Shown here: positions 3,563 through 13,920 of the stretch, one piece after another
How the letters are laid out: each line of letters begins with the position of its first letter
Numbering within the stretch: position 1 is the stretch's first letter
Assembly (NCBI GenBank): GCA_030619885.1
Contig: JAUXAN010000016.1
Span: 1-46,260 of the forward strand
DNA length: 46,260 nucleotides
Source: a bacterium
Lineage (GTDB): Bacteria; Hydrothermota; DG-26; JAUXAN01
Reading direction: 5' to 3'
The notes under the pieces: generated by a model
Seen by the model: the letters and a program-made list of their open reading frames with translations, nothing else
Told to the model about the DNA's origin: nothing
Database searches by the model: none
Translations under genes and position numbers: made by a program

Positions 3563-3832
3563 ATGCTCCAGGTAAAAGATGAACTCTGTATTGGCTGCAC
3601 TCTGTGTGCTACAGTCTGCCTATCAGGGGCAATAATTCTACTGTACGGAAAAGCACGAATAAATCCCGCACTATGTACTAACTGCTACAGATGTGTCTCA
3701 GTCTGTCCCCAAGGGGCTATTCAGGAAGAGGCACGGATTACCATCTATAATCTGAAGTCGAGTCTCATTGAACTCGGAGAAAAAATCAATCAACTTTCTG
3801 CAAGACTAGGCCAGTTGGAAGTAAGGAGATGA
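3563..3832 (+). CDS. Two-cluster ferredoxin with C-terminal helix
   Basis: An 89-residue bacterial-type 2[4Fe-4S] protein. Ligand sets are CIGCTLCATVC (first Cys at residue 8) and CTNCYRCVSVCP. Residues 58-89 (an IYNLKSSLIELGEKINQLSARL-type helix) form a likely coiled coil, unusual for a free ferredoxin and suggesting that it docks on a partner. The ATG directly follows the preceding stop, and its own stop overlaps the next ATG by 4 bp. Confidence 0.9.
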   Translation: MLQVKDELCIGCTLCATVCLSGAIILLYGKARINPALCTNCYRCVSVCPQGAIQEEARITIYNLKSSLIELGEKINQLSARLGQLEVRR

Positions 3833-4587
3833 ATATTACAATCTTGTTTGACAATTATCCATATAAAGAGGGGCTTGCCCCGTTAGATAGTAAACTTCTA
3901 ACGGGGCTTGAAACAGGTTGGGGATTCAGTTGTCTACTCAAAGGCTTGGAAAAGACCATCCTGTTCGATACGGGGGCAGATGGCAGGGTTTTGCTCTCAA
4001 ATATGGAAAAACTTGGAATAGAACCCAAAAGTATAGACACGATCTTTCTTTCACATGAACATTGGGACCACACAGGTGGATTAACCACGCTGCTCAATAA
4101 ACGTTCAGATTATTTCATCTATCTACCAAAATCTTTTTCAACGGGGTTCAAGTCGAGCGTAAGAGAGTATGGAGCAAAGATTGTGGATGTGGACAAATCG
4201 GTGGAAATTTGTAAGGACGCATATTCTACTGGTGAAATGGGTGTATCCTTGAAGGAACAATCTCTCATTGTAAAAACTGCACATGGTCTCATAGGAATTA
4301 CAGGCTGTGCGCATCCTGGTATTGTAAATATTCTCAAGAAGATAAAACAACTATTTACAGAAGAGATATACCTGATTATGGGCGGGTTTCATCTTGGTGG
4401 CTATTCTGATAAAGAATTGAAAGAGATTGTTAAAGAGTTCAAAACTATGGGGGTTATGAAGACTGCTCCATCCCATTGTAGTGGTGATAGATGTATGAAA
4501 TTATTCAAAGAAGAATACGGAGACAATTTTGTTGAACTTGGGGTGGGGATAAATTTATCCACGGATTGCACAGATTTCACGGAATAG
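3829..4587 (+). CDS. Metallo-beta-lactamase-fold protein (COG1237 type) with an 11-residue repeat insertion
   Basis: A 252-residue MBL-fold protein of the COG1237 group (annotated as 7,8-dihydropterin-6-methyl-4-aminobenzene-phosphate synthase-like). Metal ligands are visible in SHEHWDHTGG (HxHxDH), GCAHPG and the GGFH region. It is about 45 percent similar by eye to the MBL protein at 7080. Residues 17-27 (APLDSKLLTGL) have no counterpart in that paralogue and are encoded by a palindromic repeat; without them NYPYKEG-LETGWGFSC aligns residue for residue with NNIPHDTALKTSWGMSC. The enzymatic role in this cluster is unknown; neighbours suggest cofactor chemistry or redox. Confidence 0.88.
   Translation: MNITILFDNYPYKEGLAPLDSKLLTGLETGWGFSCLLKGLEKTILFDTGADGRVLLSNMEKLGIEPKSIDTIFLSHEHWDHTGGLTTLLNKRSDYFIYLPKSFSTGFKSSVREYGAKIVDVDKSVEICKDAYSTGEMGVSLKEQSLIVKTAHGLIGITGCAHPGIVNILKKIKQLFTEEIYLIMGGFHLGGYSDKELKEIVKEFKTMGVMKTAPSHCSGDRCMKLFKEEYGDNFVELGVGINLSTDCTDFTE
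3870..3910. repeat. Palindromic repeat, short form, in frame within a CDS
   Basis: Arms GCCCCGTTAGA (3877-3887) and TCTAACGGGGC (3897-3907) are perfect inverted repeats with a 9-base loop. GGGGCTTG occurs at 3870-3877 and 3903-3910, exactly 33 bp apart, as expected if an insertion duplicated part of its target. The 33-bp gain keeps the frame and gives 11 extra residues. Same family as the elements at 5061, 8765 and 44662. Confidence 0.88.
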
Positions 4588-4592
4588 GAAAC

Positions 4593-4797
4593 ATGGATAA
4601 TAAATTAATATTTGAAGATCTGAGCTACAAAATTATTGGAGCAGCTATGGAAGTGCATAAGGTTTTAGATCATGGTTTTAAATAAGAAATACAAAGCAAA
4701 TTATGTAGTAGAAGGTAAAGTGATTGTAGAAATCAAGGAAACGAATGGTCTTATAAAATCAGTGCAATCTGTGAAATCAGTGGATGAGATCGAATGA
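4593..4797 (+). pseudogene. GxxExxY-family gene remnant with internal deletion
   Basis: The first 30 codons read MDNKLIFEDLSYKIIGAAME then VHKVLDHGFK and a stop at 4683. From 4687, in another frame, the sequence reads KYKANYVVEGKVIVEIKETNG to a TGA at 4795-4797. These are the N-terminal (IIGAAxEVHxxLGxG) and middle (YxADxVVEGKVIVEIK) parts of GxxExxY proteins, which are normally about 125 residues. The stretch between, including the GxxExxY motif itself, is missing, as is the C-terminus. The family's function is unknown. The last bases overlap the start of the next gene, so the remnant could still serve as its leader. Confidence 0.82.
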
Positions 4798-5729
4798 TAG
4801 TTTCGATTGCCAGCGGTAAAGGTGGAACTGGTAAAACGACAGTAGCCGTAAACCTTGCTCTATTGTTGAGCAGGAACGGGTCACAGAATATCCACTTTTT
4901 AGACTGCGATGTGGAGGAGCCTAACGCCCACATCTTCTTAAAACCTCATATTGATTCGTTTGAATCTGTGGGTATCCCCATACCTGAAATTGACGAACAG
5001 AAATGCACCTACTGTGGGATATGCGCTGAGGTGTGTGTCTATAATGCAATTGCGGTAGTTCACCCCGTTAGAAGTAATTCCACAGAGCAGGATGTCTCGT
5101 CTTTGACGAGAACTTCTAACGGGGTAAAAGATAAGGTGCTCATCTTCCCCGAGTTATGCCACGGGTGCGGGGGATGCAGCCTCCTCTGTCCAGAAGAGGC
5201 AATCAGTGAGAAAGAGCGAGAGATAGGTGTTTTAGAACAGGGAAGAGCTGAGGGAATTAAATTTGTGCACGGAAAACTTAATATTGGTGAACCTATGGCA
5301 GCACCGTTGATAAGGGCTGTTAAGGAAAAGATTACTTCACATGGTATCGCTATCATCGATGTTCCTCCAGGAACCTCCTGCCCGGTGATTGAGGCGGTTA
5401 AAGATAGCGATTTCACTATTTTGGTGACTGAACCAACCCCTTTTGGTCTGAATGACTTGCAATTAGCGGTTGAGACGGTGAGAAAACTCGGGCTTCCTTG
5501 TGGAGTCGTCATCAATTGTTCAGATGTAGGAGATGAAAAGGTAAAAGAATACTGCAATGAAGAAGGTATTCCAATTTTAGCCGAAATTCCTTATGACAGA
5601 ACAGTAGCAATTCTCTATTCACATGGTATCCCAATATTGATTGAAGGGGAGAAGTACAGAACAATTTTCCAGCAGATGTGGGACTCGATTGAGAAAGAAG
5701 CTAAACAGATTAAAAAAGAAAAAAGATGA
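4794..5729 (+). CDS. MinD-superfamily ATPase with inserted ferredoxin domain (COG1149), with repeat insertion
   Basis: A 311-residue P-loop ATPase. [10 protein letters not shown] is at residues 7-16. A two-cluster ferredoxin module follows ([15 protein letters not shown] and [14 protein letters not shown]), then the ATPase core resumes ([10 protein letters not shown]). Such proteins couple ATP hydrolysis to Fe-S clusters, but their clients are unknown. Between the two cluster motifs, residues 90-111 (starting [10 protein letters not shown]) are extra: family members run from AIAVV straight to [11 protein letters not shown]. The extra block is encoded by a 66-bp palindromic repeat. The start is the ATG at 4794, overlapping the GxxExxY remnant. 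The stop overlaps the next ATG by 4 bp. Confidence 0.92.
5061..5126. repeat. Palindromic repeat, long form, in frame within a CDS
   Basis: Outer arms ACCCCGTTAGAAGT (5062-5075) and ACTTCTAACGGGGT (5112-5125) are perfect inverted repeats of 14 bp. A second, inner hairpin TCTCGTC-TTT-GACGAGA lies just before the right arm. Length is 66 bp, a multiple of three, adding about 22 residues between the two cluster motifs of the ATPase. It looks like the full-length version of the short elements at 3870 and 8765. Confidence 0.88.
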
Positions 5730-6079
5730 ATCCCGCTATAGAAGTAGAAAATTTGGCCAAATCTTATGGAAAGTTACTCGCCGTTGACCATATATCCTTC
5801 CAGGTAAAAAGGGGAGAAATCTTTGGATTTCTTGGTCCCAACGGTGCGGGAAAGACAACTACCCAGAGGATATTAACTGGGGTCCTGGAACCAACCGGAG
5901 GCAGAATAGTGGCATTGTTCTCACCACTTACATACACTACGGATCTTTTGCGGCATTCGCTTCAGCAGCACCATCACTATCAAATCGCTTTGGATGTGTT
6001 GATGCTCCTTGCATTCATAATTCTATTTTTGATTCTCGGAATGGGGTTTCATAAGAAGAGTTTGTCAAAGAGGTTATAG
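5726..6079 (+). pseudogene. ABC transporter remnant: ATPase N-terminus fused to permease C-terminus
   Basis: A 117-codon open frame. Residues 1-63 are the start of an ABC-type ATPase ([11 protein letters not shown], Walker [11 protein letters not shown], then [13 protein letters not shown]). From about residue 64 it switches to the C-terminus of an ABC-2 type permease ([15 protein letters not shown], then the last membrane helix [17 protein letters not shown] and a basic tail). Signature motif, Walker B and most membrane helices are absent. This is best explained by one deletion joining two adjacent genes of an exporter, with the reading frame kept by chance. The product cannot transport. It still overlaps its neighbours as an operon member. 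Confidence 0.85.
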
Positions 6080-7790: not shown

Positions 7791-8629
7791 AGACATACCT
7801 CGACTGCATCCCGTGTTTCTTGAAGCAGGCACTCTGGATATCCCGTAGGACGACAGACGATGAGCCCAAGATAAAGCAGATACTGGGTGAAATCGGAGCG
7901 CTCATAAAAACCATTCCTCTCAACAGTTCGCCCCCTGAAACAGGAAGGCTTATATACAAAAAGATACGGGAAATAACGGGTATTTCGGACCCGCTCAAGG
8001 ATTTAAAAAAGAAATACACTGAAATTGCACTGGGGCTCTATCCATTCTTAAAAAGAGAAATTGAAAAATCGGATGATAGACTCCTCACGGCGATAAGGCT
8101 CTCCATTGCTGGAAATGTGATAGACTTTGGTGCAAGCAGAGGATTCGAACTCGAAAAAGAGATAGAGGAGATACTGAAAAAAGAGTTTGCAATCTTTGAT
8201 TATGAAAAGTTCAAAGAATGTTTTGAATCTGCTGATGAAGTCTTATACATTGGAGACAATGCGGGTGAGACCGTTTTTGATAAAATTCTGATAGAAGAAA
8301 TGAACAAACCCGTAACTTATGTTGTGAGGGAGCAGCCTGTTATAAACGATGCAACTTACGTGGATGCAGTTGAATCGGGGCTCGATAAGGTTGCAAAGAT
8401 TTTATCCTCTGGCACGGATGCCCCGGGTGTTATTCTCGAAACCACGGGTGAGGAGTTCAAAAAAGTTTACAACGATGCGCAATTCATAATAAGTAAGGGG
8501 CAGGGAAATTATGAGGCACTCTCTGAGGAGAAACGTCCCATATTCTTTCTATTGAAGGTAAAATGCCCTGTCATTGCAAAGGACATAGGGGTGGGGGATG
8601 GGGATATAATACTCAAGAAATCTTTTTAA
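7787..8629 (+). CDS. DUF89 / ARMT1-like damage-control phosphatase
   Basis: A 280-residue protein opening MKTYLDCIPCFLKQAL, with the CxxC-containing N-terminus typical of prokaryotic DUF89 proteins (COG1578). LYIGDNAGETVFDKIL carries the conserved Asp-Asn-Ala-Gly-Glu metal site, and FIISKGQGNYEAL is the second signature. Eukaryotic relatives are Mn- or Co-dependent phosphatases that remove damaged sugar-phosphate metabolites; the substrate here is unknown. The chosen start at 7787 overlaps the MBL stop. A minor upstream in-frame ATG at 7763 lacks an SD. It is the last gene of the cluster. Confidence 0.92.
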   Translation: MKTYLDCIPCFLKQALWISRRTTDDEPKIKQILGEIGALIKTIPLNSSPPETGRLIYKKIREITGISDPLKDLKKKYTEIALGLYPFLKREIEKSDDRLLTAIRLSIAGNVIDFGASRGFELEKEIEEILKKEFAIFDYEKFKECFESADEVLYIGDNAGETVFDKILIEEMNKPVTYVVREQPVINDATYVDAVESGLDKVAKILSSGTDAPGVILETTGEEFKKVYNDAQFIISKGQGNYEALSEEKRPIFFLLKVKCPVIAKDIGVGDGDIILKKSF

Positions 8630-8764: not shown

Positions 8765-8801
8765 TTCACCCCGTTAGATAGTAAACATCTAACGGGGTGA
8801 A
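8765..8801. repeat. Palindromic repeat, short form, intergenic
   Basis: Perfect arms TTCACCCCGTTAGAT (8765-8779) and ATCTAACGGGGTGAA (8787-8801) with a 7-base loop. AATCTGCGT lies on both sides (8757-8765 and 8800-8808). Same family as the in-gene elements at 3870 and 5061. It could fold as an RNA hairpin after the long cluster, but no T-run follows. Confidence 0.88.
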
Positions 8802-13877: not shown

Positions 13878-13920
13878 GAGACCTTGTCCCAATGACATGA
13901 CAAATATCAAACAAGCAATA

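Follow-up and report, generated by a model that had tools for sequence, protein, structure and literature searches.

A palindrome carried in frame by a bacterial MinD/ParA-type ATPase gene, very probably a non-autonomous mobile element that duplicates four base pairs of its target

In-frame palindromic insertions in bacterial genes have so far been described above all in Rickettsia, where unrelated genes are reported to contain palindromic elements of ~150 bp that keep the frame (Ogata et al., 2000, 2002, via PMC10969869). Prokaryotic MITEs, such as QMITE1/2 of Coxiella, are non-coding, have terminal inverted repeats and target duplications, and are occasionally inserted in frame within an ORF (PMC5896051); their length is given as 50-500 bp (PMC10969869). 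The REP sequences mobilised by RAYT transposases are very short hairpins, and REPINs are tagged REP pairs that are tied to RAYT genes and come without target duplication (PMC3116915).

Here we analyse a window of DNA, the whole stretch of 46,260 nucleotides from contig JAUXAN010000016.1 of a Hydrothermota bacterium, in which one gene carries a palindrome between two sequence motifs that are contiguous in its closer relatives. The features of this gene are:
4794-5729, plus strand: MinD/ParA-type P-loop ATPase with two 4Fe-4S motifs
5061-5126, plus strand: 66-bp insertion (22 codons) relative to the orthologues, absent from 21 of them
5063-5124, plus strand: 62-bp palindromic element with the conserved family ends CCCCGTTAGA and TCTAACGGGG; its perfect 14-bp arms include the flanking A and T
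5095-5111, plus strand: inner hairpin TCTCGTC-TTT-GACGAGA, a second hairpin inside the arms
5059-5062, plus strand: left flanking tetramer TTCA, which fits YNNR and differs from the right tetramer
5125-5128, plus strand: right flanking tetramer TAAA, which agrees with the V-K reading of the orthologues

The first-pass annotation had described a 66-bp element with 14-bp outer arms and an inner hairpin, adding about 22 residues between two ferredoxin motifs where relatives run straight on, and both the anatomy and the absence from relatives are borne out. The element reads CCCCGTTAGAAGT...ACTTCTAACGGGG from 5063 to 5124, with perfect 14-bp arms at 5062-5075 (ACCCCGTTAGAAGT) and 5112-5125 (ACTTCTAACGGGGT). 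Twenty-one orthologues of the same phylum, 38-64% identical to the protein, were aligned with it; none has the 22 extra residues that lie between AIAV and VKDK, and in the closer orthologues AI(A/V)V-(V/L)K(D/N) is contiguous. The insertion keeps the frame of the ATPase ORF, in which the Walker A motif (GKGGTGKT) and all eight cluster cysteines are intact, and its site is the short stretch that joins the cluster motifs, flanked by the strand-like segments AIAVV and KVLIF. Judged from the sequence, the site is probably a turn at the protein surface, and the ATPase probably gains 22 residues from the element; a single-sequence AlphaFold model of the protein had a pLDDT of 35 and was left unused. 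As RNA the element folds with -33.6 kcal/mol (z = -5.8), a stability reached by 0 of 200 shuffles, and a scan of the region against Rfam yielded neither a hit above the gathering score nor any ribozyme or intron match. The hairpin core of this copy has no match elsewhere in the genome, in 39 relatives or in viral contigs.

The outer ends, in contrast to the core, recur at dozens of unrelated sites and genes. Defining the family by its 10-bp ends, CCCCGTTAGA...TCTAACGGGG, we found 43 copies with exact arms in the 2.46-Mb assembly, 35 of them short (4-31 bp between the ends) and eight long (32-62 bp), whereas a reversed control pattern had no match. Allowing two arm mismatches gave 48 distinct copies in the stretches around copies, which were read with their flanks. 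An exact 4-bp direct repeat stands directly outside the ends in 25 of the 48, and no copy has a repeat of 5 bp or more; shuffled pairings gave a mean of 6 copies with such a repeat and a maximum of 14 in 10,000 permutations. An excess of this size is the signature of target site duplication. Moreover, one and the same 29-bp core is found at many sites with differing repeats (TTCA, TGAA, TAAA, TTTA and TTAA), which argues that 29-bp units moved as such. Three 29-bp members lie elsewhere in the window, one of them in the neighbouring MBL-fold gene:
3829-4587, plus strand: MBL-fold hydrolase with an 11-residue insertion
3878-3906, plus strand: 29-bp family member with a perfect 4-bp repeat, CTTG at 3874-3877 and 3907-3910
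8769-8797, no strand assigned: intergenic 29-bp member with flanks TTCA/TGAA
44663-44691, no strand assigned: 29-bp member with one arm mismatch and the 4-bp repeat TGAA

The member in the MBL-fold gene is in frame, its 29 bp plus the 4-bp repeat making 33 bp or 11 amino acids, and comparison with PDB 7dck places an 11-residue gap exactly at the insert. Copies in the genome lie between genes as well as in unrelated genes, namely those for the ATPase, the MBL-fold hydrolase, YceD, CheR and GxxExxY proteins. The YceD copy is in frame (...DEV-HPVRCSLSNGV-KVN...) and relatives of this protein lack the inserted segment, although the alignment is loose in that region; the CheR copy (...KYF-TPLDGRHLTGF-TCV...) is also in frame, the protein being ~11 residues longer there than PDB 1af7, and GxxExxY proteins have in-frame copies at their N-termini. 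A check proposed with the original annotation, whether the inserted peptide recurs in unrelated protein families, is therefore positive both in this genome and in other phyla: unrelated proteins contain, in frame, one of the end peptides, x-PVR...SNGV-x or PL(D/E)...LTG.

The same ends are found well beyond the source phylum. In a search of 40 genomes of relatives, nine (counting the source genome) have the family, and a scan for exact ends with 7-37 bp between them, in which each species was represented by one genome, returned at least 117 stretches. Among the matches listed are Omnitrophota, many Patescibacteria lineages, Nitrospirota, Thermodesulfovibrionia, Elusimicrobia and Planctomycetota, together with Desulfobacterota, Riflebacteria, Cloacimonadota, Stahlbacteria and WOR-3, one WOR-3 genome (L211) having a near-identical 29-bp copy; most family copies among these matches are 27-53 bp long. 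The two arms pair at positions 11, 12 and 13 in 91, 75 and 62% of the distinct elements and at position 14 in ~24%, and this covariation suggests an end signal of ~10 fixed and three covarying positions. Elsewhere, inserts are spanned by Pfam domains of DnaE (HHH_6), PolA (exonuclease), MurC, PheT (B5), TatD, RACo and an ETF protein, with excess protein lengths mostly close to the insert lengths, and GAPDH is a further in-frame host. Where an element has entered a prepilin gene at TTTA, the G-F-T processing site is formed anew (...GFTPLE...SLTGFTLIEL...). The genes that recur beside copies across phyla are only common housekeeping and prepilin families.

Some matches call for separate comment. 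Prepilin-leader copies can be seen at L157:6588-7028, L157:6004-6501, L219:6730-7347 and L144:1468-2379, and two neighbouring prepilin genes on one Omnitrophota contig (L219) both have leader copies; other genomes have leader copies too. A contig labelled Aenigmatarchaeota (L141) has copies whose flanks resemble those of the source genome, and could be a relative's contig that was binned wrongly. Three viral contigs (L235, L237 and L242) have a CCCCGTTAGA palindrome near the start of a large gene with flanks AAGC/GCTT, which do not fit YNNR; this is probably a different, conserved phage palindrome. A match in Rhizobium and several viral matches lack YNNR repeats and are probably unrelated palindromes.

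Among the matches listed, 104 of 207 distinct copies with exact arms have an exact 4-bp direct repeat, and all 104 repeats fit Y-N-N-R, the symmetrised preferred target being GTWWAC. The ATPase copy has no perfect duplication, as its flanks TTCA and TAAA agree at two of four positions; the orthologue sequences favour TAAA, read as V-K, as the original site. The YceD copy has the same mismatched pair, and in the wider set of listed matches the pair appears six times, so that point decay of a duplication is not the full explanation. Copies without an exact repeat have YNNR on both sides in 69 of 103 cases, where neighbouring tetramers would lead one to expect ~10%. The mismatched flanks would be better accounted for by exchange between copies, or by insertion in a second mode, than by point decay. 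Recurrent mismatched pairs include TTCA/TAAA and CCTG/TGAA, with examples at window positions 5059-5128 and at L108:1755-1791.

The reading frame was addressed by removing each element with one repeat and asking whether an ORF of at least 150 aa runs across the joined site. Such an empty-site ORF was found for 29 of 101 insertions whose length is a multiple of three and for 3 of 67 others (Fisher p=4e-5, an optimistic value since copies within a genome are not fully independent); of the three exceptions, two look like spurious ORFs and one lies just ahead of a start codon. We used this test in place of the simpler count of copies spanned by an ORF, 30 of 31 of which are multiples of three, because that count is biased by its requirement for an open ORF. 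At the same loci, 71% of random positions but only 25% of copies fall in such ORFs: genes are avoided, and insertions within them survive when the frame is kept. This frame-dependent survival shows that insertions in genes are frame-filtered, and they are probably translated. The first-pass annotation had noted that two genes of one operon carry inserts of the same family, both multiples of three (66 bp in the ATPase, 33 bp in the MBL-fold gene), which is correct, and had taken this to imply selection for frame or a tolerated-protein mechanism. Selection for frame is supported by the empty-site test, and two copies in one operon are unremarkable among the 43-48 copies in the genome. No special mechanism is needed for the multiple of three, since adding a 4-bp duplication to an element whose length is 2 mod 3 gives it directly. 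At such lengths the arm stops TAG and TAA share one frame and the other two frames are open, encoding x-PVR...SNGV-x and PL(D/E)...LTG, the very peptides seen. A general bias towards 2 mod 3 lengths was considered and rejected for extragenic cross-phylum copies (38 of 93, p=0.12).

We therefore think it very probable that the 62-bp palindrome is a non-autonomous mobile element that is moved in trans with a 4-bp YNNR duplication and whose frame is kept by selection. Copies would insert at YNNR tetramers (at best GTWWAC) and duplicate the 4-bp target, the likely mover being an integrase or transposase that acts in trans with a 4-nt staggered cut. One element would have inserted into the ATPase gene between its two ferredoxin motifs, where 62 + 4 = 66 bp is a multiple of three and, with the arm stops confined to one frame, reading could pass through. 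Frame-shifting insertions would be purged from genes by selection, leaving in-frame copies, and the extra residues would merely be tolerated, with no function required of the peptide.

No mobilising enzyme was found. A kilobase-size element with these ends, matching 4-bp repeats and a transposase was looked for and not found, the pairs that came up being separate copies on either side of ordinary genes. Nor did the genome and the fetched loci yield an autonomous insertion sequence that shares the ends; as the assemblies are fragmentary and two transposase families were searched, the missing parent is weak evidence. Two DDE_Tnp_1 genes were considered as a source and rejected, as they lack matching ends. 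A length of 27-29 bp is very short for classical two-ended transposition, which counts against the proposed mechanism.

One alternative is that the palindrome is of the REP/REPIN type, moved on single strands by RAYT (Y1) transposases. The smallest family members are indeed hairpins of REP size, the genome has 14 Y1_Tnp matches, and Y1_Tnp is present in 9 of 9 element-bearing genomes, whereas 15 of the 31 element-free genomes have it (p of about 0.005, calculated by hand), a co-occurrence that may only mark repeat-rich genomes. However, the ten Y1 loci examined hold a single degraded family-like copy and no flanking elements, the flanks beyond the arms are variable YNNR tetramers with no conserved GTAG tag, and half the copies have a 4-bp target duplication. 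Such a duplication is not expected from the Y1 single-strand mechanism. We consider this alternative improbable.

It is also conceivable that the insert is removed or skipped at the RNA or protein level, by hairpin-promoted ribosome bypass or by splicing, leaving the protein unchanged. The very stable RNA hairpin (-33.6 kcal/mol) would be compatible with this, but Rfam offers no ribozyme or intron match, and removal would make the frame irrelevant, yet the empty-site test gave 29/101 against 3/67, the latter three being doubtful; this makes removal very improbable. Equally hard to credit is that the peptide is kept for a benefit to the ATPase, such as altered electron transfer between the clusters. 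The gene is intact and an insert between two cluster motifs could affect function, but a single sequence with the ATPase insert is known, and family members occur in numerous unrelated proteins and for the most part lie outside genes, which fits tolerance. That the insert is an inherited loop of the ATPase lineage with an incidental palindrome is scarcely credible: the ORF is open with all metal-binding motifs intact and the core is unique in the genome, but the 21 orthologues without it, taken with the 4-bp target duplications of the same family at so many unrelated sites, point to a transposed MITE-like element.

The nearest published counterpart of the palindrome is the Rickettsia palindromic element, which is likewise palindromic, non-autonomous, present in many copies, in frame in unrelated genes and also intergenic. 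By their description those elements differ in that most copies here are 27-53 bp, with ends fixed across many phyla and a 4-bp YNNR duplication. Like prokaryotic MITEs the family has terminal inverted repeats and a duplication of fixed length, except at the ATPase copy itself, but MITEs are derived from a known insertion sequence, whereas here a parent was not found; the ATPase copy (62 bp) falls within the 50-500 bp range and most family copies are below or near 50 bp. With REP sequences and REPINs it shares the very short hairpin and the presence of Y1 transposases in the genome, but it is a single palindrome with a 4-bp duplication, and it has neither a GTAG/CGTC tag nor linkage to a RAYT gene. 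A search of the open-access literature for the 10-base ends gave no paper on such an element, so that novelty is provisional. The small dispersed repeats of cyanobacteria reported by Elhai and colleagues in 2008 are reported to be of similar minimal size, dispersed and apparently mobile, with sequences other than those of this family.

These observations extend in-frame palindromic insertion to Omnitrophota, Patescibacteria, Nitrospirota and the source phylum and make it a more general phenomenon; a single end sequence is conserved and the duplication signature is clean. More tentatively, and stopping just short of favouring it, we suggest that the CCCCGTTAGA palindromes form a cross-phylum superfamily of tiny transposable units (down to 27-33 bp) with target duplications, moved by an undescribed enzyme that would read ~10 bp and cut GTWWAC-like targets 4 nt apart, and that their length and stop layout may let them pass through essential genes as peptides in uncultured bacteria. 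The ends, the target rule and the copies in essential genes are handles for finding the enzyme. For annotation, NPVR...SNGVK or FTPLE...LTGF inside a conserved protein should be taken as a warning of mobile DNA and not as a domain.

Other features of the window were noted in passing. Between the MBL-fold and ATPase genes, 4591-4790 reads by eye as a broken remnant of a GxxExxY (PDDEXK_3-like) gene. In a short ORF at 5726-6079, a match to positions 2-51 of 137 of PF00005, the start of an ABC transporter ATPase, is followed by an unrelated membrane-like tail; the ORF looks like a deletion remnant. Two further dispersed repeat families are present, GGACGCAGATTTCCGCAGAT... at 8626, 27345, 31405 and 34318 and CAATAACTTTCGAGAACCGTCCCC... 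at 13916, 23143, 27445 and 30064, and repeats of the GCAGAT type often host nested CCCCGTTAGA copies.
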